This document shows positions 1,451 through 36,905 of a stretch of DNA of 64,000 nucleotides, one piece after another. A program made the position numbers and the translations under genes. Origin of the DNA: Amia ocellicauda (taxonomy: Eukaryota > Chordata > Actinopteri > Amiiformes > Amiidae); assembly GCF_036373705.1 (NCBI RefSeq), contig NC_089864.1:15362501-15426500 (forward strand). Reading direction: 5' to 3'. Under the pieces are notes generated by a model, which had not been told where the DNA came from, made no database searches, and worked only from the letters and a program-made list of their open reading frames with translations. The first letter of the stretch is position 1; every line of letters starts with the position of its first letter.

Positions 1451-1870
1451 AAGTGCAGCTTACACTGTTTTTAAATGTCAGAATAAGGATCCATGAGGTC
1501 GAAAAACAACTCCCGAAAGATCATGAGGAAACTAAATAAAGGTAAACTAAATAAGGTAAGCCTAATTAAATAGGTAAGCCTAATTAAAGGACAATGTACT
1601 TACAATGTGCATGGTGTTCCCTATATGCAAGCAACTTCATTTCCACCCCCCCAAAAAAAAGAAAAAAAAGTGCAACTTACATTGCTTTAAAATGTCAGAA
1701 TAAGGATCCATGAGGTAAAAAAAAACTAACCAAAAACAACTCCCAAAGGATCATAAGGAAACTGAATAAAGGTAAACTAAATAAGTATTACACGTACTAT
1801 CTCAGGCAAAGATAAAACTAAATAATGTAGGTCTACTTACATAAGGACAATGTACTAACAATGTACACAA
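1451..1870. repeat. Tandem duplication, unit about 215-235 bp
   Basis: The block near 1455-1615 (a GTGCAGCTTACA stretch, then AATGTCAGAATAAGGATCC, then AAACTAAATAAAGGTAAACT) recurs near 1671-1865 with small changes (GTGCAACTTACA, the same AATGTCAGAATAAGGATCC, and so on). Both halves end with GGACAATGTACT followed by ACAATGT. The second half runs into the end of the hAT transposase frame on the minus strand. The repeat is therefore probably part of the same element or arose at its truncated end. Confidence 0.7.
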
Positions 1871-2450
1871 GGGTCAACCAATTATCAGTGATGTAGTGCG
1901 CTGTAACACCGAAGTAGTTGTGATTACTAATCAATGTCCAGAGGTCACCAGTTAAGGCAACAGTCGGTGTATTTTTCAAGTCCTCCACTTTCTTAGCCCT
2001 TTCATCTTCATAAAGTTCTTGTATTCTCGTAACAACAGTGGCTCTTGATGGCAACTCATATGTTGAGTCGTTTGATGCAATGCGAATAATATCTCTCAGA
2101 CCATCATCTTCCACAATGTTAATTGGCTGGCAAGCAACAGCTATCCACTTCGCTATAGCGGTTAGCTTGCTGCTGGTTGACTTGTCAATTTGCCTCCTGC
2201 GTGCAAACTCTAAAAGAGTAGGTTGCTGTTCAGCACTTTGAGCCCTCTCACCACCGTGGCTCATGTCAGCTGTGTGTTGTGCTGGTAAATGATACTTCAG
2301 ACTCGATGTACTTCGGTGATATACAAATTTGCCCTTACAGTAGGTGCAAATAACTTTGCTTCTAAAGACCCATCCGTACTTATTTTTTAATGAAACTGAC
2401 CGTCTCTTGTTGGCGTAGCCTCTGACTGAGGTAAAGGATGGGATGTTCAC
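1833..2450 (-). pseudogene. hAT transposase N-terminal half (BED-type zinc finger, ZBED1-like)
   Basis: This minus-strand open frame of 205 residues is the N-terminal half of a hAT-superfamily transposase. Residues about 20-60 form a BED-type zinc finger: an aromatic cluster, then CTYC, then a helix with SSLKYHL and a final H. Residues about 75-165 form a helical linker. Near residue 165 comes TGDLW, which in hAT enzymes carries the first catalytic aspartate, followed by YFGVTAHYI. The frame then stops at lysine after LSLC. The large insertion domain, the remaining catalytic residues and the dimerisation region are absent. GTAAGT follows just after the last residues on the minus strand, so an intron is possible, but no continuation is visible. 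The upstream side abuts a gypsy-type remnant at about 2455. I take it to be a truncated, dead element. Confidence 0.8.
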
Positions 2451-2458
2451 TGTGTGGA

Positions 2459-3990
2459 CTATGAACAGTAGGGTGAAATCTGGGTTCCAGAGGATGGGTC
2501 AGTCTCAACCTCTGGGTTCCATGTCACTTTCTCCAGTTGTTGTAAATGGGTAATTTCTGTCAGGGGAGATGCTATGGAGTAGAAGATAGGAAAAAAACAC
2601 CAGTAACCAGCCAACCCAGGAATGTTATCACCTGTTTCTTGGTCTTGTGTCTGGGCCAGACCCAGACAGCCTCCACCTTCTTCTTCTTCTGGGGCATGAG
2701 GAGGCCCCATCCAATTTTATATCCCAAGTACTCTGCTTCTGTTTATCCAAACCGGCATTTCCGGATATTGGCTTGAGCCCTGTACACCAGAGGTCTTCAC
2801 TTGTAGCTGGGTACACCTCCTGTATTAACATGCAGTCCTGTTCATGCCATTTCTTCAAGAGATTAATATTATATATTTGTACACATTTGTGGTGCCCAGG
2901 TTGAATGACCTTTTAATTGACAGCACTTACCCATTCCAGTACCTCACATGGCCCTTGCCAGGTGGCCAGAAACTTGTTTTCACAGTTGGGTACCAGTACC
3001 AGCACTCGGTCCTCTGGTTGGAACTCCCTGGGTTGTGCACGGTGGTTGTAGGCCCACTGTTGCTGGGGTTGGGTGGCCTCCATGTATTCCCAGACCATGA
3101 GGTAGATTGTCCTCATGCGGTCTTCCATTTCCTCAATCACTAAGCTGTGGGGGCTGATTCGCTTTCCCAGGTTTCCTTGGCGATGCCAAGCAGGCCCCGG
3201 GTTTGGTGAGCGAAGAGCAATTCAAATGGAGAGAAGCTAGTGGACGCCTGTGGAACCTCCTTGATGGATAACATTTATTAAGGTAATAGCTGATCCCAGT
3301 TCCACTCATTCAACTCTACCACCCTATGGAGCATAGTCTTCAAGATGCAATTAAAGCATTCCACCAGCCCGTCCGTCTTGGTGTGGTAGACATGAAGGGA
3401 GTACCCTGATCTGTGATAATTTCCTTCGGCATCCCCACATGGCTGGTGAACAGGAACAGATCGCTGGCAATTTTCTTGGAGGTAGATACTCTTAATGGTA
3501 TGGCCTCCGGGTATCAGGTGGCATAATCCACCAGGAAAGGAATGTATTGGTGTCCTCTAACCAAGTGTGATAAAGGTCCCACTATATCCATTTCCAATCT
3601 CTCAAACAGCGTTGGTATGATAGGGAGTGGTATCAAGGGATTGTGAAAGTTGGGTCCAGGAGCTGCCCTCTGGTAAGTGGGGGACCCTTGACAGAACCTT
3701 CTTACAGCCGCCTCACAACCCGGCCAGAAGAACCGAGCTGTCATGCAGTCACCCCTAGGTATCCCCCCAGAATGTGGCAGTGGGCTAGCTATAAGACTGT
3801 CTTGTAGCAGGGTTGGAGTACCAACCGCTGCTCTGTTTGTTAGCCCCATTGTAGCTCCACCTTAAAAAGCAGCCCATTGCGGATGATGAACTACTGAGTT
3901 GGCAGGGGTCCCGGTTGCTGGGGTCTCCCCTTGATCCCTGCAACCTGGGTTCTGGCATGCCTGAGTTTGCCGTCCTCCAGCTGGGCTGTG
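2459..3990 (-). mobile_element. Degenerate Ty3/gypsy-type pol remnant with integrase upstream of RT
   Basis: Read on the minus strand, about 3850-3514 encodes an integrase zinc-binding region (HSGG, FFWPG, RRFCQGS, CxxxQ-like) and the start of the catalytic core (LEMDIVGPL with the first aspartate, then GHQYIPFLVDYAT). About 3140-2913 encodes the integrase C-terminal part (EFQPEDRVLVLVP, TWQGPCEVLEWV). Further downstream on the same strand, about 2860-2710 continues with a KKWHEQ stretch. Then, with frame changes, 2710-2546 encodes the RT connection region (GLAGYW, FYSIASPLT). Most of RT is missing and there are several frameshifts. I see no LTRs. The order integrase then RT is the reverse of the usual Ty3/gypsy order and resembles Gmr1-type elements described from fish; rearrangement is the alternative. 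Confidence 0.72.
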
Positions 3991-7134: not shown

Positions 7135-7715
7135 CTATTGTCAAAAGTGTAGAATTTAAAACAGGGGCAGTAATGTTAAAGCTGTACAATGCACTAGTTA
7201 GAGCTCATCTGGATACTGTATACATTTCTGGGCTCCACACTTCAAGAAAGATATCGCTGCTCTAGAGGCAGTTCAGAGGAGAGCAACCAGACTTATTCCA
7301 GGTCTGAGGGGAATGTCCTACTGAGAGACTGAGGAACTGAACCTTTTCACCCTGGAACAGAGGAGACTACGTGGGGATTTGATTCAAGTCTTCAAAATCA
7401 TGAAAGGCATCGACCACATCAAACCAGAGAAGCTTTTCCAGATCAGCAGGGACACACGCACCCGGGGACACAAATGGAAATTGGGCTTCAAGGCATTCAA
7501 GACAGAAAACAGGAGACACTTCTTCACACAGAGAGGCGTCACAATCTGAACAAACTCCCCAGCGATATCGTTGAAGCAACAATTTGGGAACATTTCAAAT
7601 TATATTGGATAGGATCCTTGGATCACTTAGTTACTAATGGACACCAAAGGTGCATGATGGGTCGAATGGCCTCCTCTTGATTGGACACTTTCTTATGTTC
7701 TAATGTTAAATAATT
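7135..7715 (+). mobile_element. CR1/L2-type LINE fragment (RT C-terminal region and 3' UTR)
   Basis: With a few frame changes, the plus strand encodes the conserved region that follows the LINE reverse transcriptase. It shows [20 protein letters not shown], then a leucine/arginine-rich helix ([17 protein letters not shown]), then RRHFFTQR. The 3' end carries the motif GGTCGAATGGCCTCCTCTTG and TTCTTATGTTCTAATG. Related truncated copies lie at 8860-9093 and 49,557-49,950. It is a dead 5'-truncated copy. Confidence 0.8.
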
Positions 7716-7719
7716 GAAA

Positions 7720-8850
7720 AAGAAGGGAAAAAGCGTGTGCTCTGTGGAACTGAAATGATAACAGTGCTGCTCTTGGGACAAGAAAAGCTTCATATATATG
7801 TAGTTTATGCTCACAATTGATTTAATTTACCAGCAATTGAATTTTGCACTGTGCGGTGGATATACCAGATCACAGAGTGTGAAGGGGGTGATGTGGGGAA
7901 GTATGGGCCCCTGCTTTGGACCCTGGGGCCCTGCAGAGGTCTGTGGCCCGGTGTGGGAGCCTAGGCTGGTGTTGGTGCCTGCTGACCACTGTCCACCCTT
8001 CACTCCCCTATAGCAGTTTCTCTGTGCTGTAGGCTCATAGCGAAAATAATACTCTTCCTTTTGGACAGGCATTGCAAATTGTATTTCCGTGACTGCTCAC
8101 TCTCTCTTACAAGAGCACTGAGAACAGAGAGAGAGACGCAGACACGGGAAAGGCAGGTAGGGTGAGACAGGTAAAGGTGCACACATTGGGGTGTGCAGTG
8201 TCCGTTTCCCTGTGTGGGTGGTTGCCTTTATCCCATTATGCAAATGTTGGTAGCCTCTCCCCTCTGTGCAGCGCCAATTGAGTAGGAGACGGCGCTACAA
8301 TCAGGCCCTGTTCAATGCATGGGATTACCGGCGCACTTCTGTCCTATCAGAGTTGGCTTCTCTGATTGAAGGCGGGACTAAGCAGACTGACAACCCAGAG
8401 AGCCTTTCACGGGTCACAATTACTGTAAAGAAAAACAGTAATACCGCAGTTTGGACACAGTGAACGGACGAAAATCAAGAGGGAAACACGTGTAAGGTGG
8501 GCCCTCTCTCTTGACTTAACGCATTGTGTTGGTATTGATGATCAGGGCTGTTGCGTTCATTGTACAGGAGGGGGTGCAGCCTGCCAGCTCTGCTGCTGAT
8601 CGGGGTTATACTCGTGTGCTGTGGACTTGGACTGAGGGACACTTGTGCTGCTCGTTGCTGGTTGTGTTGGTGCTGATGTGATGAGCCATGCAGATCAAAT
8701 GTTGATCCTTAATGATCAGTGGTGTGACTCTTCAGCAGCTACAGACACGCATGCAGGGACAGCCGCTGCGCCTCAGACCGGTCGGGTGTAACGGTGCGCG
8801 GTGTGAGTCTGGCTGAGGGGCCGATGCGCACCGTTGACGTGACTCGATTC
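7720..8850. other. Higher-GC intergenic stretch, possible promoter region, no gene recognised
   Basis: This stretch is less AT-rich than its surroundings. It contains an octamer ATGCAAAT at about 8238, a CCAAT motif near 8273 and GTAAGG near 8492. These could belong to a promoter and a non-coding first exon of the eIF4G1-like gene downstream, but no splice partner can be shown from sequence alone. The open frames have no recognisable domain. Confidence 0.3.
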
Positions 8851-8855
8851 AGTGT

Positions 8856-9093
8856 GTTTGGACACAAATGCAAATTGGGCTTCAAGGCATTCAAGACAGA
8901 AAACAGGAGACACTTCTTCACACAGAGAGTTATTATAATCTGGAACAAATTCCCAGCGATGTGGTTGAAGCCACAATGTGGGAACATTTAAAAATAGACT
9001 GGGTGTGATCCTTGGATCATTTAGTTATTAATGGAAACCAAACGAGCTGATGGGTCGAGTGGCCTCTCGTTTGTAAACTCTTTTATGTTTTTC
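8856..9093 (+). mobile_element. CR1/L2-type LINE 3' end just upstream of the eIF4G1-like gene
   Basis: This matches the last part of the 7135-7715 element: TTGGGCTTCAAGGCATTCAA, AACAGGAGACACTTCTTCAC, then GATCCTTGGATCATTTAGTT, ending with GGTCGAGTGGCCTCTCGTTT. It ends only about 200 bp upstream of the start codon at 9291, so it may form part of the promoter. Confidence 0.75.
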
Positions 9094-9109
9094 TGATATG
9101 TGTTCGTTA

Positions 9110-9117
9110 TGACGTCA
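9110..9117. promoter_or_regulatory. Candidate CRE (palindromic TGACGTCA)
   Basis: A perfect TGACGTCA lies about 175 bp upstream of the first coding ATG of the eIF4G1-like gene, right after the LINE tail. This is the CREB/ATF consensus. Placement in a likely promoter supports it, but a single 8-mer can arise by chance. Confidence 0.4.
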
Positions 9118-9290
9118 GGTGTTGTGAGTCGCGTACGTAACAGTCGCTGGAATTCGATTGTGTTGCTCTGTGGATTTCGCCTAATTAGCGCTGATAGTGA
9201 GTTTGTAGACGGAGCCGTACAGTGAATTGATTTTACCAACGAGTAATTTCAGTTTTACCGACAGTCTTTTGGTTGTATTGAATTCAAAAT

Positions 9291-11256
9291 ATGGCAGCTA
9301 TTGCAGACTTCAAGTTTTGTATTGAAGACTCTGCAACTTTCAGGTAGGTCGCTTCAAATCTATCGTTTTCTTTTCATTGCAGCAGGGTATGTATAGACTA
9401 CGTGTTTTTAAATGACATTACAGTTAAAGTCTGCACACAATGTGAATAATAATGTTTTTCACCAGTACAAGATCGTGTGAATTGTTCCTAAGTGTGGGTG
9501 TGTAGCTACACATTGAACCATTATTCTCGTATATTGATTACTGTATGAGAGCATATGAAATATGGTGCAGTGGGTATGGTATATGCTGAAATGTTACTGT
9601 TTTACTCCATGAGACAAAGTAATGAATATAATGACTGTGGTGTATAGGCATATAACTTTTTTGTTTTCTTTTTGTAATATTTTCCATTTTTGTCTAAGCT
9701 ATTAATATTTTCTGATATCTGTTGAGTAAAAAATAAATCTGGGTCATTTAAACGTCGAATGTTAACAACAGATTTTGAGCCAACCCCTAAAGTGTATTGC
9801 TTTCATTATTTCGTAATCCTCGGCACAACCAAGACTTCTGTGCAAATGTTGTTGCATTGATTTTATGTTGTAGGTGGAAATATACCCCTGACGAGAAGGA
9901 GAATGAGCGGCAGTTCCTGCTGGACTTACAGTTCATCTGTGACAAGCTGCAGAAACTCCGCATTAGCGATGTGGTCCTGGCTAAGGTATGCAGCCCAGCT
10001 TGTCTAGAAGACCCTAGAGTTTTATTTTCTTGTTTTTATATATAAATAAATCTGATTGAGTTGGTTTCCTGCATTGTTCTGTTGGATCTGTTTAATGTTC
10101 ATATTTGGCATTTGTCTCATTTGTACTTATGTACCATATTGCATGTTTTTTGTCAACTGCTGTCTAATTGTGATTGTTAGTTTATGTGTGTTACCTGTCC
10201 ACCACAGCAAGTTACCAGAAGACTGTTTTATGGCTTGAAGGAATAGCAACTTTGGTCTGACCCTTTCTCCCTCCCTCCCCTCTCTCCAGGCCATAAATAC
10301 CCCTGTGCATCGCCTGGACCCCAGTCAGCTGACAGGGATGAACTCTCTCCCTGACCTTACCCCCTCTCTTGCCAACCTTGGCAAACAGCCCATGGGGGGA
10401 CATGGCCCAGGCTCTTTGCCCCCCCAGCCCTCAGCAAAGGGTGCCCGGTCCTCCTGGCAGGGCGAGAGGAAGGAGCCGCGAATCATCAACGTGTCATTCA
10501 CATATGAGATTCAGCTCAACAAGGCCGAGAATGCCTGGAAGCCTACAATTAAGCAGGCTCCAACTGTGGGTGATGACCCCGAGGTCATTAAGACCCAGGT
10601 ATGTAGGAGCAGAGGACACGGTTCTTGTTTAGCGGGTGGGAATAATAATTTGCTAGTCTAGTAAAGGGGATTGTGGGTAAACTTGGAGCCCCAGTGATGA
10701 TCTGTTGTTTGTGTCATGGTGTCTGGCCCACTGACCTCTACTGATGGAGAAGAGGAAGTGAGGGGCTGAGTACGCTCACATGCACCCACCTCTCCAGAAC
10801 AAATAAGAACACGGACTTGGCCGAGGTTTGCAGAACTAACTCTTTTTCCTTCCTTCCCTCCTCCCCCCTTTCCCTTCAACAGGAGCTGTTCCGCAGGGTG
10901 AACGGTATCCTGAACAAGCTGACCCCACAGATGTTCCAGCCTTTGATGCGTCAAGTGAACGAACTGACCATCGACACGGAGCAGCGACTCCAGGGTGTCA
11001 TGGAGCTCATCTTCGAGAAGGCCATCTCCGAACCCAACTTCTCCGCCACATACGCCAATATGTGCCAGTGCCTTCTGAGGGTGAGAGAAGGAGGGTGATG
11101 GGGAGAGTGAAGTAACAGAGGGAGAGAGGGGATGGTAGAGGGTTGTGAAGATGGTATTTGTGTAAATGTGAACTTGTAAAATGTATTATGCCTTGAACTG
11201 CTCTGTATTATTGCACTTTGTATTGCTCTCATATTGGACAAGGGTGTCTGCTAGGA

Positions 11257-11288
<32 letters not shown>

Positions 11289-14200
11289 AAATACATGGAT
11301 CAGATTCGTTTAGCTCTGGAATTGTAATTTGTGGGAGTTCAGTTTTGATTGGACTAGCAGATGTCTTGTGAAGCGCATATCAAGAGTTTTCATTCCGATA
11401 CCTATTGAAGATGGAAGCCAACCTAGCACACAGACCATGCTTAGCAAGTTTCCATCTTGCTTAGGGCTTATGTTGTTCCTGCTCCCCTTTCTGTAGTTCA
11501 AAGTCCCAGCCGCTGACAAGCCGGGAGAGACGGTGCCTTTCCGCACTCTGCTTTTGAACCACTGCCAGCAGGAGTTTGAGACGGAGGAGGATGGAGACGA
11601 GGTCTTCGAGAAGAAGCAGAAGTTGCTAGATGCATCCTTGGTGGTAAGAACATTTGAACTTATTTTTTAGGGCTGCCTCGATTAATCAATTAATTGGGTC
11701 TATGAATCAACTAATGAATTGACAATCAATGTTTTTTCTATTTAATCGAGCAGATTTATAAAACAAAAGTCATAATAGTGACTTTTGATTATATGGTTAA
11801 CACTAGAATCGCAGAGATTTTGAACTACCTACAAGAGGTGATAGCCCTTTTAATGCTGTGGTATAATGAAAGGCAAACGATCGTATAAAACTAGCAGAAA
11901 TTGAGTAGTATTTAAATGTAAATATGAACATAAAACTTTCAAATGATTGGTATAAATGACATCAAAGCACTTTGTTTTCTAAACGCATACACTGCACAAT
12001 CAAAACTAATGAAACAAGTGTTTAATCACTCTGAGTACACCTGTAATGCTACACAATGCGTGTGTTTTTCAAGCACATGAAAGACTGTAGACTGTAGGTG
12101 AGCTAGAGATCGGGATTTGAACTCGATTTGCGATTATGCAGCTAAAATGCTACTTAGGCATATTTAATACATATATTTAGTCAAAGTAAAGAACGGGTCT
12201 GCACAGAGTATTCAGGATTCAGTAATTCACATTAAATCGGTCAAACTGAGCAGCCCTGCGCTTCTACAGTGTTAAATTATAAAGGCGAATCAGGCAAGAT
12301 ATCACATCACGAGAGGTATGGTACAGCATCCCCGCACAAACTACAGGGTTACAGCCGCTAAAAACTACAGTCCAGCTTTGGATTCAAACTGGATTCGTAA
12401 GGAAACACTGAAGACAAAGGAAAGGTTTTCTGTTTAATTTGCATGCAATGCTTTTCTTATAAGGGCAGTGTGATTTTACAGTATCATTTGTGAGAAAAAC
12501 ACCAGTTTGCTGTAGTGATTTTATTTTAGTTTGCTGATTATAATGATTTAGTTTTTTGTTTTTTTTAAATATTCATTTAAACATTTTTTATCCATTCCCA
12601 TTCAGCGTTGTTATACTGTTATATCAATGCCTAGTATTTATTAAAGTATAACTGTGTGGCACAACCACTTAAAGAGTGTTACACTTATTTTAATAAGTGC
12701 CTGATTAATCTGCTGATTAATCAACTAATTAACTGATAACCAATCAAATATTTGAATCGACTGACAGCCCAAGTATTTATTTTAAATATAAACAGGGTTC
12801 ATACGCTAGTCTGGATGTCTGGAAAAAGTCTGGAAAATGCAAAACTGATTTCCAGGGCTTGCAAATGCTTGAAAAATCATGCCTCTATTATGATAGTAAG
12901 TAATTAAGTGCCGTGTGTGCGCAGGGCGAGGAGCGGCAGCGTCTATGTGACGAGCTGCAGGAGGCCAAGTGCAAGGCCCAGCGGCGCTCGCTAGGCAACA
13001 TCAGGTTCATTGGGGAGCTGTTCAAGGTGAAGATGCTGGTGAAGAAAACCATGCACAATTGCATCGTCAAGCTGTTGAAGAACCACGAAGAGTCCCTGGA
13101 GTGCCTGTGCCGACTGCTCTCCACTATCGGCAAAGACCTGGACTTGGAGACCGCCAAGGTAAGGCAGGTCCGGCCGCCGCACCAGACTGAGCCCTGCCTA
13201 AACATCCAGCAACGTGATGGGGCCTCTAGACAGTGGTCTGAATAAGTGTTTCTGAGCATCTGCAGAAGCCTTCTTGAAGGAATGCTGCTTCACTCAGTGG
13301 TATAAAGGTATTTCTGTACCTGCTGTCTGCACTGTTTTCTAATCGTTCTGTCTGACCTTTTCACCAGCCCCGCATGGACCAGTACTTCAGCCAGATGGAG
13401 CAGATCATCAAAGAGAGGAAGACCTCTCCTCGAATCCGCTTCATGCTGCAGGACGTCTTGGACCTGAGAAGAGTAAGTCATGAGTGTTGGGAGAATAGAA
13501 AACTTCCTTGCTTTCAGCTTCCCACTCCCCCAATCCCTGCCTGCCTCTCGTTCTCTCTCTCTACAATGGTCACTGACTCTTTCTCCCCTTCCTCAGGATA
13601 ACTGGGTGCCCAGGAGGGGTGACCAGGGTCCTAAGACAATCGACCAGGTCCACAAGGAAGCAGAGCTGGAGGCGCACCGTGAGCAGATCAAGGTGCAACA
13701 GCAGCTCATGAGCAAGAAGGACAACCGACGTGGGGGCCCTGGGGGGCCGCGCCCTGCAGGTGAGGCTCAAGAGCACACAGATGAGAATTCAACCAAAACT
13801 GTCCAATCACACCACCTCATTTTCTAATGATGTCTCTGTCGGGGGGGTCCCAGTCCCCAGTCTTATATGGCTTATGTTCCATTAAATTTTTTTGGCAACG
13901 TAAACCATTGAGGTTGTGTGAGTTACTTTGGAAACCGTTTAATTACATTCTACTGGTTCAATTCAGTAATGAGCTTATCTGGGAGAAGTGTGAACATCAC
14001 TGTGAGGACTAGGTCTGTGGTTTGGAGCAGTGAGCCTCCATTCTTGGTCATCTACACTGCATGCCCTCAAAACGCTCAGGCGAGTAGTTCTATCCATGCA
14101 GCAGCACAGCCTGTTCCTTCAGTGGCTCCCTCCCTCTTTCACAGCTCCTGAGTCTGGATGGCGCGCTACCGGCACCCTGAAGCGCTGCTCCACCCTGCAG

Positions 14201-14419
14201 CAATCGTCCTCCGCCGCTCCTTCCTCCGTTTTCAGGAGTAGCTCTCGCCGGGATGGCGGTGAGTGTAATAACCTCTTCAAGCAGCCGGAGCGTCACGAGC
14301 GCGGCCAGCGTGAACACTCAGAGAGGAGAGGCGCCGGGGATAAGAGCAGCCTGGACAGGATTGACTTGAAGAAGCCAAAGTCCATCATTGGGGAGTGTCT
14401 CCACCTCAATGACATGAAG
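9291..14419 (+). CDS. eIF4G1-like gene, first MIF4G copy (nine coding exons)
   Basis: Exons: 9291-9343, 9874-9985, 10290-10598, 10883-11080, 11497-11643, 12925-13158, 13368-13472, 13597-13759, 14145-14419. All have GT-AG junctions and stay in frame (532 residues). The start has a good context (AAATATGG) and an in-frame TGA at 9279-9281. eIF4G1 is the scaffold of the cap-binding complex; its MIF4G HEAT domain binds eIF4A and eIF3/RNA. Here residues about 159-386 form MIF4G ([55 protein letters not shown]). [15 protein letters not shown] follows, and the last exon ends with [13 protein letters not shown], the start of the MA3 region. There is no long N-terminus. At the eIF4E-binding site (YxxxxL plus hydrophobic) the sequence is NERQFLL, so the tyrosine is replaced by Asn. 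MA3 and W2 exons do not follow; instead the tandem second copy begins 510 bp later in the same phase. Confidence 0.85.
11140..11290 (+). repeat. SINE/LINE-like 3' tail with (AAT)n in intron of copy 1
   Basis: The stretch TATTATGCCTTGAACTGCTC, then GACAAGGGTGTCTGCTAGGA, then an AAT ladder (about 11,259-11,287), matches in reverse complement the LINE 3' end at 58,620-58,740. The same insertion is present at the equivalent place in copy 2 (15,640-15,805), so it predates the duplication. Confidence 0.75.
11668..12772. mobile_element. Non-autonomous hAT-like element (about 1.1 kb) in intron of copy 1
   Basis: The left end reads TAGGGCTGCCTCGATTAATC. The right end, in reverse complement, reads TTGGGCTGTCAGTCGATTCA, so the termini are inverted. 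The flanking 8-mers TTATTTTT and GTATTTAT match at 6 of 8 positions, as expected for an old hAT target-site duplication. The homologous intron of copy 2 (about 16,147-16,306) lacks the element and reads straight through TTTTATTTTTAAATATAATC, which is an empty site. I see no transposase inside. Confidence 0.8.
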
Positions 14420-14929
14420 GTAAGGGGATGATCCACTGCTGCACACAATAGGGGGCTCAGAGCCCATCACTTCAGAGTGCTGTTATCAAAGGTTTAACGT
14501 TTACTTACTTGTTCAGTGGATCTTGCTTCTGCTGAACACTTTCGTCAAAAATATACAGCAGCAGAGCTGAGGAAAAGTCAATGAATGTGCCTGCAATATT
14601 TTCACGTCACAAATGTAACATCAATAGAATCAATACTAGCAGTGTGAAGCTGGGTAAAAGGCTTGGCGCATTTTAGAAATATCACTTCCAGACACCAACC
14701 ACTTTAATTAAAAGGAGAATCTTCACAATAAGTCTATTTTTAGATAATGGTGCAGTTTGCATTGGAAGCGGTCTCAGCTGAGCGCTGTTTTATCTGTTGA
14801 GCATTGGAATACAGCTCCAGCAGGCGAATCGGGGATTGTGCGCAATGAGAATCTATTCACCACACGGCCCTCGCAGCGGAAGACACGTGCCCCTTGCCCT
14901 GACTAGCGACTGACTTTTTGTCCCCCCAG

Positions 14930-15742
14930 CCCTCAGCAGTGGCTCCCCAGCGCTCCCAGCAGGGAGAGAGGAGGGAGCAGCGCAAGGTCATCACCCTGTC
15001 ATTCTCACATGAGGTTCAGCTCAACAAGGCCGAGAAGGCCTGGAAGCCTACAATTAAGCAGGCTCCAACTGTGGGTGATGACCCCGAGGTCATTAAGACC
15101 CAGGTATGTAGGAGCAGAGGACACGGTTCTTGTTTAGCGGGTGGGAATAATAATTTGCTAGTCTAGTAAAGGGGATTGTGGGTAAACTTGGAGCCCCAGT
15201 GATGGTCTGTTGTTTGTGCCATGGTGTCTGGCCCACTGACCTCTACTGATGGAGAAGAGGAAGTGAGGGGCTGAGTACGCTCACATGCACCCACCTCTCC
15301 AGAACAAATAAGAACACGGACTTGGCCGAGGTTTGCAGAACTAACCCTTTTTCCTTCCTTCCCTCCTCCCCCCTTTCCCTTCAACAGGAGCTGTTCCGCA
15401 GGGTGAACGGTATCCTGAACAAGCTGACCCCACAGATGTTCCAGCCTTTGTTGCGTCAAGTGAACGAGCTGACCATCGACACGGAGCAGCGACTCCAGGG
15501 TGTCATGGAGCTCATCTTTGAGAAGGCCATCTCCGAACCCAACTTCTCCGCCACATACGCCAATATGTGCCAGTGCCTTCTGAGGGTGAGAGAAGGAGGG
15601 TGATGGGGAGAGTGAAGTAACAGAGGGAGAGAGGGGATGGTAGAGGGTTGTGAAGATGCTATTTGTGTAAATTTGAATTTGTAAAATGTATTATGCCTTG
15701 AACTGCTCTGTATTATTAGACAAGGGTTTCTGCTAGGAGATA

Positions 15743-15804
<62 letters not shown>

Positions 15805-17237
15805 ATGGATGAGATTAGTTTAGCTCTGGAATTGTAATTTGTGGGAGTTCAGTTTTGAGTGGACTAGCAGATGCCTGTCTTGTGTAGCACATATCAAGAG
15901 TTTTCACTCCGATACCTATTTAAGATGGAAGCCAACCAGACCATGCTTAGGAAGTTTCCATTTTGCTTAGGGTTTATGTTGTTTCTGCTCCCCTTTCTGT
16001 AGTTCAAAGTCCCGACCAATGACCAGCCGGGAGAGATGGTGACTTTCCGCACTCTGCTTTTGAACCGTTGCCTGAAGGAGTTTGAGATGGAGGAGGATGG
16101 AGACGAGGTCTTCAAGAAGAAACAGAAGATGCTGGATGCATCCTTGGTAAAAAATGTTGAATGACTTTTATTTTTAAATATAATCAGGGTTTGTACGCTA
16201 GTGTGATAGTCTGGAAAATGCGAAACTGATTTCCAGTTCTTGGAATGCTTGAAAAATCATACCTCCATTATGATAGTATGTAAATGAGTGCTGTCTGTTT
16301 GCGCAGGGCGAGGAGCGGCAGCGTCTACGTGACGAGCTGCAGGATGCCAAGCACAAGGCTCAGTGGCGCTCGCTAGGCTACATAAAGTTCTTTGGGGAGC
16401 TGTTCAAGGTGAAGATGCTGACAGAGGCCATGATGCACGCCTGCATCTTCAAGCTGTTGAAGAACCACGAAGAGTCCCTGGAGTGCCTGTGCCGACTCCT
16501 CTCCACTATCGGCAAAGACCTGGACCTCCAGACAGCCAAGGTAAGGCAGGTCCGGCCACCGTGCCAGACTGAGCCCTGGCTAAACATCCAGCATCGTGAT
16601 GGGGCTTACAGACAGTAGTGTGAATAAGTGTTTCTGAGCATCTGCAGAAGCCTTCTTGAAGGAATGCTACTTCACTCGGTGGTATAAAGTTACTTCCGTA
16701 CCTGCTGTCTGCACTGTTTTCTAATCGTTCTGTCTGACCTTTTCACCAGCCCCGCATGGACCAGTACTTCAGCCAGATGGAGCAGATCATCAAAGAGAGG
16801 AAGACCTCCCCTCGAATCCGCTTCATGCTGCAGGACATCTTAGACCTGAGAAGAGTAAGTCATGAGTGTTGGGAGAATAGAAACCTTCCTTGTTTTCAGC
16901 TTCCCACTCCCCCAATCCCTGTCTGCCTCTCGTTCTCTCTCTACAATGGTCACTGACTCTTTCTCCCCTTCCACAGGATAACTGGGTGCCCAGGAGGGGT
17001 GACCAGGGTCCTAAGACAATTGACCAGGTCCACAAGGAAGCAGAGCTGGAGGCGCACCGTGAGCAGATCAAGGTGCAGCAGCAGCTCATGAGCAAGAAGG
17101 ACAACCGGCGTGATGCGAACTTCAGTGAAAGTGTCCTGTCACGCGTTGGTCGGGCCAGAGCAGAGCAGGCCAGGAAGAGAGGGACTTTTGCGAAAGCACT
17201 AGAAATAGAAGCACCAGTCCTTCTCTGGCGAAGATGA
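14930..17237 (+). CDS. eIF4G1-like second MIF4G copy (six exons), probably spliced to the first
   Basis: Exons: 14930-15103, 15388-15585, 16003-16146, 16307-16540, 16750-16854, 16977-17237 (371 residues plus TGA). The first exon begins at a TTTTTGTCCCCCCAG acceptor with a CTGAC branch-like motif. It is in the same phase as the donor at 14,420, and no in-frame ATG lies just upstream (an in-frame TGA is at 14,900), so splicing from copy 1 is the simplest model. Residues about 59-285 of this part form a second MIF4G domain ([42 protein letters not shown]). Some residues that are conserved in eIF4G1 and in copy 1 are altered, for example RRSLGNI to QWRSLGYI. After [15 protein letters not shown] the protein leaves the duplicated sequence and ends in a unique basic tail of about 42 residues. 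An AATAAA lies at 17,291. Alternative: an unprocessed pseudogene, although every frame and splice site is intact. Confidence 0.8.
15640..15805 (+). repeat. SINE/LINE-like 3' tail with long (AAT)n in intron of copy 2
   Basis: This is the counterpart of 11,140-11,290. The AAT ladder is about 62 bp here (15,742-15,803) against about 29 bp in copy 1, and a roughly 20-bp piece before it is missing. The difference shows the microsatellite has expanded or contracted since duplication. Confidence 0.8.
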
Positions 17238-17290
17238 AAGCATCAAGATATGATCATTAAATTTCTTTCCCTTCTCTGTTTAATCTACAA

Positions 17291-17296
17291 AATAAA
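17291..17296 (+). promoter_or_regulatory. Polyadenylation signal AATAAA
   Basis: AATAAA lies 54 bp after the TGA of the second MIF4G copy, in an AT-rich 3' UTR. No comparable signal was sought between the two copies. Its place fits a single transcript ending here. Confidence 0.6.
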
Positions 17297-17749
17297 ATGA
17301 TAATGTTCTTCTGTTCAAACTAAGACTCTTGATCAGTGTGTATGTGGTGTCATATATTAGAGCACGATCAGTACAGCCTGGGGAACAGTATGGATATCTA
17401 TATCTATATTATATTGAATGGAGGTGCACTGTAGATCAGAGATGTAGACTCGGATGGTTTCACCGACCTTGGTTAGCACTAGTCTCGGAGTTCTCTACCT
17501 CCTATAAAATCTAATAGAGACTAGTACTAAACTGTGTTTGTGAAGCCGCCGCTAAGACATTGTGAGCAGAAGTTCAATAGTTGTACAGTGCAACAGGAAC
17601 AGTGCAACGAATTTGAAAAAGGACGTTTTAAGACCAATTAAAAGTATCTGATGAATATAAGCAGTTCAGTGTGTTAAATACCTTTTAAATAATCGTAGCT
17701 TCAAAGCAGCATCATAGCTTTTTTCTGGAAGGATTTATGAGAGGATTTT

Positions 17750-21237: not shown

Positions 21238-22251
21238 TTAGTACTTGGTGGCAAAACCCTTGTTGGCAATCACAGAGGTCAGACGTTTCTTGTAGTTGGC
21301 CACCAGGTTTGCACACATCTCAGGAGGGATTTTGTCCCACTCCTCTTTGCAGATCCTCTCCAAGTCATTAAGGTTTCGAGGCTGACGTTTGGCAACTCGA
21401 ACCTTCAGCTCCCTCCACAGATTTTCTATGGGATTAAGGTCTGGAGACTGGCTAGACCACTCCAGGACCTTAATGTGCTTCTTCTTGAGCCACTCCTTTG
21501 TTGCCTTGGCTGTGTGTTTTGGATCATTGTCATGCTGGAATACCCATCCACGACCCATTTTCAATGCCCTGACTGAGGGAAGGAGGTTCTCACCCAAGAT
21601 TTGACGGTACATGGCCCCATCCATCGTCCCTTTGATGCGGTGCAGTTGTCCTGTCCCCTTAGCAGAAAAACACCCCCAAAGCATAATGTTTCCACCTCCA
21701 TGTTTGATGGTGGGGATGGTGTTCTTGGGGTCATTCCTCCTCCTCCAAACATGGCAAGTTGAGTTGATGCCAAAGAGCTTGATTTTGGTCTCATCTGACC
21801 ACAACACTTTCACCCAGTTCTCCTCTGAATCATTCAGATGTTCATTGGCAAACTTCAGACGGGCCTGTACATGTGCTTTCTTGAGCAGGGGGACCTTGCG
21901 GGCGCTGCAGGATTTCAGTCCTTCACGTCGTAGTGTGTTACCAATTGTTTTCTTGGTGACTATGGTCCCAGCTGCCTTGAGATCATTAATAAGATCCTCC
22001 CATGTAGTTCTGGGCTGATTCCTCACCGTTCTCATGATCATTGAAACTCCACGAAGTGAGATCTTTCATGGAGCCCCAGACCGAGGGAGACTGACAGTTA
22101 TTTTGTGTTTCTTCCATTTGCGAATAATCACACCAACTGTTATCACCTTCTCACCAATCTGCTTGGCGATGGTCTTGTAGCCCATTCCAGCCTTGTGTAG
22201 GTCTACAATCTTGTCCCTGACATCCTTGGACAGCTCTTTGGTCTTGGCCAT
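21238..22251 (-). pseudogene. Tc1 transposase, full length but with one internal stop
   Basis: The frame runs from ATG at 22,251 to the stop at 21,238. The N-terminal paired-like helix-turn-helix is present ([29 protein letters not shown]). The catalytic domain has WSDETK (first Asp), HDNDPKHTA (second Asp) and [11 protein letters not shown] (the Glu of DD34E). The end is [17 protein letters not shown]. The only break I can see is an in-frame TGA at about 22,066-22,068, directly after PRSGAP; reading continues in the same frame as [15 protein letters not shown] short protein from the internal ATG at 22,041 would keep the catalytic domain but lack the DNA-binding part. Confidence 0.9.
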
Positions 22252-23995: not shown

Positions 23996-24889
23996 ATTAA
24001 TGACCTAAAAACTACTTGCTATCCATTAACTAACATCAACCCTAACTCTAGTAACACACCACTGGCACTGAGACTTATGCTGTGTTCCAGACAACTCGGA
24101 AAGTCGGGATTTCCAACTTCCTACTAGGGAAAGTGCATTGGAACACCACTCGATGTTGGAGTTCCAACTAGTGAACTCAGGCGGAACTGAAGAGCCCTGA
24201 CTTCAGCGAGAGGCGATTATATGACGTCACACAAACATGGCAGAACACCAGGGGTTCTCAAACTTTTTCACATGTGACCCCCAAAAACACATGTTTCAAA
24301 TATTGCAATCCCTGCACACACATGTGCACATAACATAAGGACTCACACTACACAACACAAATGTAGACACGCTCTTATCAACTATTTCATATTAATGATC
24401 TGTTCTCTCACGTATGTTTATTATTAGTAAGTTAGTAAGCAACTTACTCGTTTAATGAGATGGGTGGGCCTGCTTTTTGAGATCATCCTGCACATTGAGA
24501 CATGATATTGTCACATTGTTTTTGATATATGTCAGTGTGGAAAATGTTGCCTCACATAAGTAGGTTGATCCAAACAGAATCAGTACATCCATCGCTGCTT
24601 TGGATATTCCTGGGTATTCCTCTGCAACTGAAATCCAGAATTCAGCAAGTGTGGTTGAAACAAACATTGCCTTTAAGGTCTGATCACTGGACAGCTCCAT
24701 CAGTGCGATCTCCAGGTCGGATGACAGGTGATCCCCAGTTGCCATGAACAGTTGTCGTAACCAGTCATATCGTTGTGGAGGTGTCTCCTTTGGGAAGTAC
24801 TCCATAAAGTGATCCAGAAGGCCTTGGAGATGTGACATTGCTGCCTTTAGCTCGCACAGCCCTGTAGCATAAGGCACACTTATAAATTT

Positions 24890-26240
24890 AAATTAAAGAA
24901 GTGAATTTATAGTATCACCTTATCACGAATCCTGGAATCTTGTAGAACTCAATTTCTGTAATATTGGACGCAGACACCAATTCCAAAGATATAAATTGTC
25001 AAATTTATTCAAAAACAAAGACTAAATGTAGCACTACACTAATTATACAAAATGGAAAAACTAATTAAAATTCAACTCTAGATCAACAAATCAAAGACAA
25101 ATCACTTCCGTGACCAAATCAAAGACCATGGGATCGCATATGATAACACAAATCGTTAAACAAAAAAGGTTATAAACACATTGACTACAATACCGGTTAG
25201 TAAGACGAAGGTGAGTCTCTCATTAGTATTGTTAGTCAGACATTAAATAACTACGCAGGTTAGTATTTATGTCAGGTAACTTCTCGTTATATATATATCA
25301 GTCTCATTTACGTTTAGGTGCCAAGAAAGATCCTATCATTACTTGTTACCACAATTTCCCTTAACTGATTATTATTCAATGATTAAGGATAGGCAGGGCC
25401 ACCTATAATCTGGTGTCCATTAACTTGTGTCAATTTCAGACTAAACAGTTAAACAGGAATGAGAAGATATTTCTCGGCGTTGACAGATTTTATTTCTAAA
25501 ATTATCAACAAAACAGTTTAATGCAACACACATTTATATTTAAGAAAACTAAATGATATTACACATTCTAGAGTTATGAATCACAGATTAACATTTCTGA
25601 TTTCTCAAATGTCATGAATCATGAACTCCAAACTGTTAAACTTATCTGAACTTCGTCGCAGAGAGGCAGCGCAGTCTGTAATGTTCTTTATTTAATGAAG
25701 TCCTTTAAAACAATTCTTCGTACGGCTCAATCTCCTTCTCCCAGTTTAACTCTTCTGTTGCCGGCAAAGACTTGGTTGGTTTCTGGTTCTGGTTTGGGCA
25801 ACAGAGCTACAGGTTGAGCTGTGGCAGCAAGTTTCTGGTTCAGGTGAGAGAGAGAGAGAGAGAGAGACTGTGCGCTGTTCTTTATAGTCTGTCAGATCAA
25901 TAGATGATTGGTTCTTGAGTTTGTGAGATTGGATTTCAGTTTCAGCCCCCAGTGTCCTATTGGAGGGGGGCTTGATTTATGACTGATGTCAATCCATGCC
26001 ATCTTTTGGAAATGCCGGTTGGCCCGGGTTCGTAGCTCTGTGTCGGGATTTCGGCTCTCGTCCATTTCATAGAGTTTTTATTACCTACAGGCCCCCTTCC
26101 CCAGACATCTCACAGCAGGGATTCCAAACTATTTGGCCTATTCTCGGTGCCATCCTCCCAGACTGTCACTTTGATGTAAACCAGTTCCACACTTTAAGGA
26201 AATCTGATAACTTTGGGGGGGAGAGGTCTTCTTTAGATCA
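24890..26240. mobile_element. Unclassified insertion splitting the hAT transposase
   Basis: The hAT reading is broken between its catalytic part (ending about 26,246) and its C-terminal part (starting about 24,877) by about 1.35 kb with no similarity to hAT. It includes a GA ladder (25,850-25,868). I could not find clear LTRs, TIRs or a coding domain. Confidence 0.4.
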
Positions 26241-27239: not shown

Positions 27240-27753
27240 TCAATTTGCGCTTTGGCGGGGACTGTGGCTTACAGAGTTATTGCTTGCTTCTGATAGAAAG
27301 GTGTCAGAACACACAGTGCATCGCAGTTTGTTGCGTATGGGGCTGCGTAGCCGCAGACCAGTCAGGGTGCCCATGCTGACCCCTGTCCACTGCCGAAAAT
27401 GCCTACAATGGGCACGTGAGTATCAGAACTGGACCACGGAGCAATGGAAGAAGGTGGCCTGGTCTGATGAATCATGAGTTCAAGGTGTCGACTTGGCCTC
27501 CAAATTCCCCAGATCTCAATCCAATCGAGCATCTGTGGGATGTGCTGGACAAACAAGTCCGATCCATGGAGGCCCCACCTCACAACTTACAGGACTTAAA
27601 GGATCTGCTGCTAATGTCTTGGTGCCAGATACCACAGCACACCTTCAGAGGTCTAGTGGAGTCCATGCCTCGACGGGTCAGGGCTGTTTTGGTGGCAAAA
27701 GGGGGACCTACACAATATTAGGCAGGTGGTCATAATCTTATGGCTGATCGGTG
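27240..27753 (+). mobile_element. Internally deleted Tc1 remnant inside the hAT
   Basis: The plus strand encodes a Tc1 transposase piece ending at VAWSDES, then directly [20 protein letters not shown] in a shifted frame, then RGLVESMPRRVRAVL and GGPTQY. The whole stretch between the first catalytic Asp and the SPDLNPIE motif is deleted. The right terminal repeat (GGCAGGTGGTCATAATCTTA, GGCTGATCGGTG) ends at a TA (27,754-27,755). The left side is truncated inside the hAT frame. Confidence 0.8.
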
Positions 27754-35414: not shown

Positions 35415-36905
35415 ATAGATTAATAGATTATATTTATCAATTAACTAAATGCAAAGTGAGTGAACAGAAGAAAAATCTAAATCAAATCCATATTTGGTGT
35501 GACCACCCTTTGCCTTAAAAACAGCATCAATTCTTCCAGGTACACTTGCACAAAGTCAGGGTTTTTGTAGGCATATAGTCAGGTGTATGATTAAACAATT
35601 ATACCAAACAGGTGCTAATGATCATTCAATATGTAGGTTGAAACACAATCATTAACTGAAACAGAAACAGCTGTGTAGGAGGAATAAAACTGGGTGAGGA
35701 ACAGACAAACTCAGCTAACAAGGTGAGGCTGCTGAAGACAGTTTACTGTCAAAAGTCATACACCATGACAAGTCTGAGCACAGCAACAAGACACAAGGTA
35801 GTTCTACTGCATCAGCAAGGTCTCTCCCAGGCTAACATTTCAAGCAGACAGGGGTTTCCAGGTGTGCTGTCCAAGCTCTTTTGAAGAAGCACAAAGAAAT
35901 GGGCAACGTTGAGGACCATAGACACAGTGGTTGGCCATGGAAACTTACTGCAGCAGATGAAAGGCACATCATGCTTACTTCCCTTCACAATCGGAAGATG
36001 TCCAGCAGTGCCATCAGCTCAGAATTGGCAGAAAACAGTGGGACCCTGGTACACCCATCTACTGTCCGGAGAAGTCTGGTCAGAAGTGGCCTTCATGGAA
36101 GACTTGTGGCCAAAAAGCCATACCTCTGACATGGTAACAAGGCCAAGTGATTCAACTATGCATGAAAACACAGTAACTGGGGTGCAGAAAAATGGCAGCA
36201 GGTGCTCTGGACTGATGAGTTAAAATTTGAAATATTTGGCTGTAGCAGAAGGCAGTTTGTTTGCTGAAGGGCTGGAGAGCGGTACACAAATGAGTGTCTG
36301 CAGGCAACAGTGAAGCATGGTGGAGGTTCCTTGCAAGTTTGGGGCTGCATTTCTGCAAATGGAGTTGGGGGATTTGGTCCGAATGAATGGTCTCCTCAAT
36401 GCTGAGAAGTACAGGCAGATACTTATCCATCATGCAATACCATCAGGGAGGCATCTGATTGGCCCCACATTTATTCTGCAGCATGACAACGACCCCAAAC
36501 ATACAGCAACAGTCATTAAGAACTATCTACAGCATAAAGAAGAACAAGGAGTCCTGGAAGTGATGGTATGGCCCCCACAGAGCCCTGATCTCAACATCAT
36601 CGAGTCTGTCTGGGTTTACATGGCGAGAGAAGCAACTGAGGCTGCCTAAATCCACAGAAGAACTGTGGTCAGTTCTCCAAGATGTTTGGGCCAACCTACC
36701 TGCACACAGTTTTTGAAGGAACTCGGCAAGTGAACCTAGAAGAATTTATGCTGTTTTTAAGGCAAAGGGTGGTCACAGCAAATATTGATTTGATTTAGAT
36801 TTTTCTTCTGTTCCCTCACTTTGAATTTAGTTAATTGATAAATATAATCTATTAACATGTCTATTTTTGAAAGCATTCTTACATTACAGCATTTTTTCAC
36901 ACCTG
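35415..36905 (+). mobile_element. Decayed Tc1-type transposon with long terminal repeats
   Basis: The terminal repeats contain AAAGTGAGTGAACAGAAGAA, TATTTGGTGTGACCACCC on the left and the reverse complement on the right (about 36,755-36,905). The transposase lies on the plus strand from about 35,767. It has SQANISS and KKHKEMGNVEDHR in the helix-turn-helix part, then ELAENSGTLVHPSTVRRSLV, then [22 protein letters not shown] and PPQSPDLNIIESVW, the DDE signatures. At least four frameshifts or stops interrupt it. A terminal-repeat fragment of the same family lies at 22,770-22,885. Confidence 0.85.

Follow-up and report, generated by a model that had tools for sequence, protein, structure and literature searches.

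A predicted two-MIF4G gene derived from eIF4G1 and its family of related loci in the bowfin Amia ocellicauda

Structure of the gene

The window considered here is a stretch of 64,000 nucleotides from the bowfin Amia ocellicauda (RefSeq assembly GCF_036373705.1, contig NC_089864.1, positions 15,362,501 to 15,426,500), and positions 9291 to 17237 of its forward strand hold a gene predicted to encode a protein with two MIF4G domains of the eIF4G1 type. Canonical eIF4G1 and eIF4G3 carry one MIF4G domain together with the MA3 and W2 domains. In the window, the MIF4G exon set occurs twice in direct order, with exon pairs that are 88.0–98.5% identical between the copies, and the 15 predicted exons, separated by introns that all (14 of 14) follow the GT-AG rule, form a single frame of 903 codons and one stop. 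Each half of the protein scores as a full MIF4G domain in Pfam, with 187 bits (E 3e-55) for copy 1 and 183 bits (E 1e-53) for copy 2 against a cut-off of 30.8 bits. A preliminary description, made from the sequence alone, had proposed the direct duplication and one frame of about 903 residues, and suggested a profile scan of the product; the duplication, the frame and both domains were all recovered, and the exon coordinates offered there are correct to about one base where given.

Exon 1 (9291–9343) provides the ATG and 17 codons and ends at phase 2; an in-frame ATG is present in this exon at all ten loci read for it, the window included, out of 12 loci of the related family that were translated, and the other two did not show exon 1. 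Exon 2 (9874–9985) derives from the eIF4E-binding exon of eIF4G1, with the Tyr of the motif replaced by Asn (KENERQFLL). Exon 3 (10290–10598) consists of two eIF4G1 exons fused by the loss of the intron preceding the RSQQ exon, and the former 3' splice tract is now translated as SLPPQ. MIF4G domain 1 is encoded by exon 4 (10883–11080), which carries eIF4A-contact residues, and by exons 5 (11497–11643), 6 (12925–13158) and 7 (13368–13472), followed by exon 8 (13597–13759), which closes the region of domain 1 and ends at phase 1, and by exon 9 (14145–14419), a linker that matches three canonical eIF4G1 stretches and ends in the first MA3 residues (LHLNDMK). Copy 2 starts with exon 10 (14930–15103) and continues with domain 2 in exons 11 (15388–15585), 12 (16003–16146), 13 (16307–16540) and 14 (16750–16854), whereas exon 15 (16977–17237) holds the end of this domain and a tail closed by the stop TGA. 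Exons 2–7 and 9–14 each end at phase 0.

The two copies are connected by an intron at 14420–14929, whose donor GT lies at 14,420–14,421, directly after the end of exon 9 at 14,419, and whose acceptor AG lies at 14,928–14,929, with phase 0 on both sides, in agreement with the preliminary description. Copy 2 has no in-frame ATG between 14,929 and the upstream stop codon that ends at 14,902, so that this part of the earlier account stands back to that stop. By contrast, the remark that the sole AATAAA noted follows copy 2 has to be corrected, since AATAAA or ATTAAA occurs on the + strand at eight sites within 9291–17400 (9732, 10045, 12231, 12640, 13881, 14707, 17256 and 17291); only those at 17256 and 17291 lie past the stop of the frame, the latter (AATAAA, 17291–17296) being the candidate poly(A) signal, while the ATTAAA at 14707 is situated within the joining intron.

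Origin from eIF4G1 and the bowfin family

The two ends of the joining intron match two different introns of canonical eIF4G1. Its left part (14382–14528) is an 82% match to the last part of the MA3-starting exon together with the intron that follows, and its right part (14802–14930) is a 71% match to the intron that precedes the RSQQ exon, the counterpart of the first exon of copy 2. The joining intron is thus chimeric, with its two ends drawn from separate introns of eIF4G1, and the donor at 14,419 and the acceptor at 14,930 are old phase-0 splice sites of eIF4G1. Since the breaks of the duplication fell in two introns, the open frame across the copies is explained without recourse to chance. 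The tail of copy 2, from 17161 on, matches the sequence immediately 3' of the canonical exon coding for W2, presumably the 3' untranslated region (UTR), and thus the 3' end of the gene seems to have been deleted as far as this UTR. Bowfin contig C7 carries a canonical eIF4G1 that appears complete by similarity, residues 13–1417 of gar eIF4G1 matching in order across loci L018 and L034. Two canonical exons situated between MIF4G and the linker (7706–8115 of the C7 stretch) have no counterpart in the window, and the matches between the window and L018 skip 7497–8379.

The window gene is best read as a single multi-exon unit derived from bowfin eIF4G1. The segment bounded by the intron preceding the RSQQ exon and the one following the first MA3 exon would have been duplicated in tandem, from intron to intron, and the 3' end would then have been lost back to the apparent canonical 3' UTR. 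The predicted mRNA, in which 14,419 is presumably spliced to 14,930, would encode the two-MIF4G protein of 903 residues. A retrocopy is ruled out, as introns are common to the gene and canonical eIF4G1.

The window, which belongs to contig C21, is not the only locus of this kind. From the MIF4G matches in the 988-Mb assembly, 20 stretches were selected, to which five adjoining pieces and one more were added later. Exon mapping divides the 20 into seven loci with two MIF4G domains (L013, L014, L019, L020, L021, L022 and L023), six that carry one MIF4G and close with the same last exon (L011, L015, L016, L024, L025 and L026), the canonical gene (L018) and six more diverged ones (L009, L010, L012, L017, L027 and L028); L023 and L025 were mapped by exon and not translated. 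With the window, the two-domain loci thus number eight, and the two-domain frame is intact in five of them, namely the window (903 residues), L022 (902), L013 (912), L014 (911) and L021 (covered from exon 3 onward). L019 also has an intact frame, but one of 721 residues whose first domain is devoid of exons 7–9, L020 is frameshifted and L023 rearranged. Among the single-MIF4G loci, the frame of L024 is intact, and the six exons of L015 that were read contain no stop. Moreover, a DNA search with positions 14,000–17,300 of the window returned matches to the whole query at no fewer than four contigs (C21, C2, C4 and C11), a lower bound, since 40 of 1544 candidates were scored.

The window protein shows all the marks of the bowfin two-MIF4G family, that is, a junction of the LHLNDMK-to-PSAVAPQ type, MIF4G domains in tandem and a tail of the VLLWRR type. 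Two NCBI models of Amia ocellicauda, P0001 ('eukaryotic translation initiation factor 4 gamma 1-like') and P0002 ('uncharacterized protein LOC136770503'), are 92–93% identical to it and have the same two-domain order, junction and tail, although they belong to other loci and have different predicted starts. They correspond nearly residue for residue to L021 (contig C11) and L022 (contig C2), respectively, P0001 being a few residues off at one exon boundary. The structural claim, namely that a two-MIF4G gene derived from eIF4G1 is real and repeated in the bowfin genome, is strong. The protein type is already present in NCBI as models of two paralogues and, as far as seen, is undescribed in the literature: no paper on these genes, or on the multi-MIF4G and TRIM–MIF4G genes of teleosts, was found in the literature search, which is weak evidence, since most subscription journals lay outside its coverage, and a term search of the main text of the bowfin genome paper (PMC8423624) found no mention of MIF4G or eIF4G.

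The wider genome search for MIF4G gave at least 170 matches; 150 of 285 candidates were scored, and these 150 fall into 78–88 clusters on 34 contigs. Dense arrays of more diverged copies are located at C5:51.5–53.4 Mb, C8:2.5–2.7 Mb, C23:29.6 Mb and on C374, some of which could represent different MIF4G genes, for example eIF4G3. In addition, highly similar single-MIF4G copies recur every ~95–150 kb on small contigs (C38, C43, C82, C90, C377, C385 and others), as if they were part of a very long tandem repeat; L011, the single member read from these small-contig copies, has a broken frame.

Phylogenetic trees bear on the order of events. A protein tree covering 51 MIF4G domains places domain 1 of the window, of P0001 and of P0002 in one group (support 98/89), which also holds P0236, a fragment from A. 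calva; the copy-2 domains of these three proteins form another (98/97), which also holds P0242 and P0245. A DNA tree built from the exons least affected by conversion, covering 15 domains from nine loci, separates the copy-1 and copy-2 groups with support of 95/91 and 97/95, with the exception of domain 2 of L013, which falls within the domain 1 group, as expected from gene conversion. Since copy-1 domains cluster across loci and copy-2 domains do the same, with one converted exception, the duplication was a single event that preceded the spread of the gene. The order of exons in L024 (contig C25), where copy-1 exons 1–7 are joined to the last exon of copy 2 in an intact frame of 472 residues, is as expected from unequal crossing-over.

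The preliminary description had spoken of an unusual translation scaffold; a view of the gene as a singular oddity is not supported, given that a many-copy family exists in bowfin and that multi-MIF4G proteins occur in other fish as well. In the protein tree, those from eels and tarpon, from salmonids and pike, from one cyprinid and from one rockfish are placed outside the bowfin groups, and these separate positions suggest separate origins. The eel and tarpon proteins P0004 and P0028 resemble the window protein in having two or three MIF4G domains and no MA3 or W2, but they form a separate clade, and P0004 ends in a LITAF-like domain. The TRIM–MIF4G fusions of teleosts (salmonids, pike, cyprinids and cod) share an eIF4G1-like MIF4G, often in two copies, but differ in their TRIM coiled coil, sometimes with RING or B-box, and in their positions in other parts of the tree; no TRIM coiled coil, RING or B-box was found in the window protein by a Pfam scan, which detected MIF4G alone. 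Proteins of this fused type include P0309, P0319, P0336, P0340, P0227 and several salmonid ones within P0256–P0283, with a TRIM coiled coil, in some RING or B-box, and one or two MIF4G domains, and one of them is named TRIM25. UPF2 also has several MIF4G domains per protein (excerpts of PMC3936715), but it operates in a different pathway and gave a weak structural match alone (to UPF2 MIF4G-3), with no sequence match at the thresholds used. Tandem MIF4G arrays of two or three domains are also found in a tunicate (P0235, Clavelina) and a jellyfish (P0017, Rhopilema). The rockfish 'mif4g domain-containing protein a' (PMC4557894) and the salmon 'nucleolar protein with MIF4G domain 1' (PMC12294397), judged from excerpts of these two papers, both look like other genes.

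Domains lost, residues kept and predicted function

Compared with canonical vertebrate eIF4G1 and eIF4G3, the window gene shares the MIF4G type (phmmer E values no higher than 1.6e-140 against the two long human eIF4G1 chains), the exon–intron layout and an intronic SNORD66, but it has two MIF4G domains and is devoid of the eIF4E-binding Tyr, MA3, W2 and the long N-terminal region. The eIF4E-binding motif follows the rule YxxxxL-hydrophobic, and the gar protein P0012 reads KKYDREFLL, whereas the window reads KENERQFLL; the residue in place of Tyr is Asn in P0001 and Ser in L022. Neither MA3 nor W2 was found in the window protein by the Pfam scan, although the first MA3 residues are present. 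In eIF4G, the site for the poly(A)-binding protein lies in the long N-terminal region, of which the model retains no counterpart, with a single 17-codon exon preceding the motif exon; positions 9000–9900 of the window gave no significant match to the canonical gene stretch compared, and exons farther upstream were not searched for.

Regarding eIF4A, residues S738, R764, S767, T773, Q779, Q783 and D982 of human eIF4GI are situated at the modelled interface (excerpts of PMC7470955). Both copies in the window keep R764, T773, Q783 and D982 and carry S738T, S767G and Q779P. The same letters are found in canonical eIF4G1 of other fish (Astyanax has T738, paddlefish G767 and carp P779), and the argument that Q779P and S767G mean a loss of eIF4A binding was rejected, as the carp and paddlefish proteins share those letters. 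W735, which we take to be a further contact residue, is also kept in both copies, and the exons with most eIF4A contacts, B and E, are nearly identical between them. From the conservation of contact residues, both domains would be expected to bind eIF4A. Human eIF4GI 653–1053 is active and 653–1020 inactive (excerpts of PMC7470955), and copy 2 ceases to resemble eIF4G1 near human residue 1034. In the AlphaFold model of the paralogue P0001, two helical MIF4G-like modules, with ten-residue blocks of ~56–85 in the predicted local distance difference test (pLDDT), are separated by a low-confidence linker, and the best structural matches are eIF4G1 MIF4G domains in complexes with eIF4A, each spanning the length of one domain.

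The predicted protein thus lacks the long N-terminal region, the eIF4E-binding Tyr, the two post-MIF4G exons, MA3 and W2, and keeps most eIF4A contacts in both domains. It would bind eIF4A, perhaps two molecules, and RNA, yet would be unable to associate with the cap or to assemble a complete eIF4F, and would then compete in initiation, act as a decoy or modulate the process locally. From sequence, the binding of two eIF4A molecules or a dominant modulation, as originally suggested, appears plausible. The reading preferred here, a single eIF4G1-derived gene for a predicted 903-residue protein with two MIF4G domains that would act as an eIF4A-binding modulator or decoy without cap binding, is given a probability of about two in three.

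Coding constraint and competing readings

Differences between paralogues suggest that the two-MIF4G gene is apparently under coding constraint. Between the window and L022, the coding exons contain one 3-base indel in 2.7 kb and none that breaks the frame, whereas the introns contain 31 gap runs in 5300 columns, 28 of which are not a multiple of three. The ratio of nonsynonymous to synonymous divergence (dN/dS) is 0.24–0.55 over ten pairs of copy 2 (window, L019, L020, L021 and L022) and 0.25–0.45 over ten pairs of copy 1 (window, L019, L021, L022 and L024), and Fisher tests for window–L022 and window–L021 gave p values from 2e-5 to 7e-3, with approximate site totals. Divergence from the window in introns and 3' flank, with intron 5 of copy 1 left out, is 0.056 for L022 and 0.076 for L021, and dS is ~0.10. 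Along with the ancestral splice sites and the recurrence of the layout, this constraint on both domains gives good support to the original prediction of one gene with two MIF4G domains and no complete MA3 or W2. Between the two copies within the window, dN/dS is 0.67 overall, exon A has proportions of nonsynonymous and synonymous differences of 0.137 and 0.051, and amino-acid-changing differences number one each in exons B and E as against 18, 12 and ~20 in exons A, C and D. Positive selection is not claimed from these values, as the identity is uneven from exon to exon, which suggests gene conversion.

Several results weigh against the preferred reading. The dN/dS values reach 0.25–0.82 over all 28 pairs of eight copy-1 domains and 0.24–0.92 over all 21 pairs of seven copy-2 domains, the top values of the latter involving L013 with its converted second domain. 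The dN between the window and L022 (0.034 in domain 1 and 0.025 in domain 2) has to be set against the corresponding intron divergence of 0.056, and since intron divergence is below dS, the constraint is milder when judged against introns. Two of the eight two-domain loci are broken and one is shortened, and at least three of the six single-MIF4G loci are broken (L011, L016 and L026), so that much of the family decays. Furthermore, P0001 and P0002 are database models with differing predicted starts, no exact database protein for the window locus occurs among the 120 matches listed per search, and the P0001 structure model is weak overall (mean pLDDT 55), particularly outside the two domains.

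The best rival to a protein function is snoRNA amplification. A SNORD66 match lies in an intron of each copy, at 10689–10765 (64.1 bits; cut-off 32) and at 15194–15270 (63.2 bits), both on the + strand. SNORD66 is paired with the host gene EIF4G1 in humans and targets C1272 of 18S rRNA (excerpts of PMC7072173); the canonical eIF4G1 stretch L018 holds three matches. In the genome, at least 58 SNORD66 matches exceed the cut-off (58 of 62558 candidates were scored, a lower bound, as the window's own copy-2 match is not among them), and all but two of the 58 are situated no more than 5 kb from a member of the set of 150 MIF4G matches, which indicates that the family is also an amplifier of this snoRNA. 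The locus could then be a relic, transcribed or silent, that is of use through its intronic SNORD66, with an unused protein whose frame survives through youth and gene conversion, a possibility that also draws on the broken family loci and on the 98.9% identity of intron A between the copies. It is nonetheless unlikely, as amino-acid changes occur less often than synonymous ones or those in introns, the indels spare the frame in the 2.7 kb of coding sequence compared with L022 and abound in the introns, and five loci have an intact two-domain frame (that of L021 as covered from exon 3 onward); snoRNA amplification leaves the coding constraint unexplained.

The two copies might, instead, be used mainly singly, with alternative splicing or separate promoters giving rise to single-MIF4G products. 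The phase-0 ends of exons 2–7 and 9–14 would let skips between the copies keep the frame, six loci of the family contain just one MIF4G together with the shared last exon, and the two NCBI models start differently; but the lack of an in-frame ATG ahead of the copy 2 MIF4G back to the stop ending at 14,902, and the derivation of both ends of the joining intron from eIF4G1 introns, make this use improbable. That the duplication is an assembly error, a common outcome at tandem repeats although no specific sign of one was found at the window, is scarcely credible and was rejected, as the copies differ by 11–12% in three exons and the two-domain layout recurs on other contigs.

Returning to the single two-MIF4G gene as a modulator or decoy, the turnover of copy number and the TRIM fusions of other fish hint weakly at defence as its likeliest setting. 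The norovirus VPg site has been mapped on human residues 912–919 (excerpts of PMC4703368), a patch that has diverged in the window (E914K and D919N in copy 1 and D919A in copy 2, with H918 kept), although any link of this divergence to viruses is conjecture. A broader and doubtful proposal is that ray-finned fish repeatedly made eIF4G1 fragments into fast-turnover defence genes, and that the bowfin decoy, built once by intron-to-intron duplication and then spread, with its eIF4A-binding exons nearly unchanged between copies and the VPg-site surface diverged, would intercept translation complexes driven by viruses or stress. The many bowfin MIF4G copies and the separate multi-MIF4G and TRIM–MIF4G genes of teleosts suggest that a core translation factor has been repeatedly recruited into high-turnover families. 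If expressed, the bowfin protein would be an eIF4G-derived scaffold with two helicase-binding modules and without the eIF4E-binding Tyr, MA3 and W2, that is, a natural test of what MIF4G does alone.

A tRNA scan of the window found none. The surroundings of the gene contain pieces of Tc1-like transposases (DDE_3) at 21241–22065 (-), 27380–27718 (+) and 36314–36646 (+), the first of which also has HTH_Tnp_Tc3_2, and hAT-type pieces with a BED zinc finger and a hAT dimerisation region at 1836–2498 (-) and 24455–24892 (-). A 188-base repeat occurs twice upstream of the gene (7466–7653 and 8860–9047, 86% identical), and sequence related to it is also found upstream of several paralogous loci.

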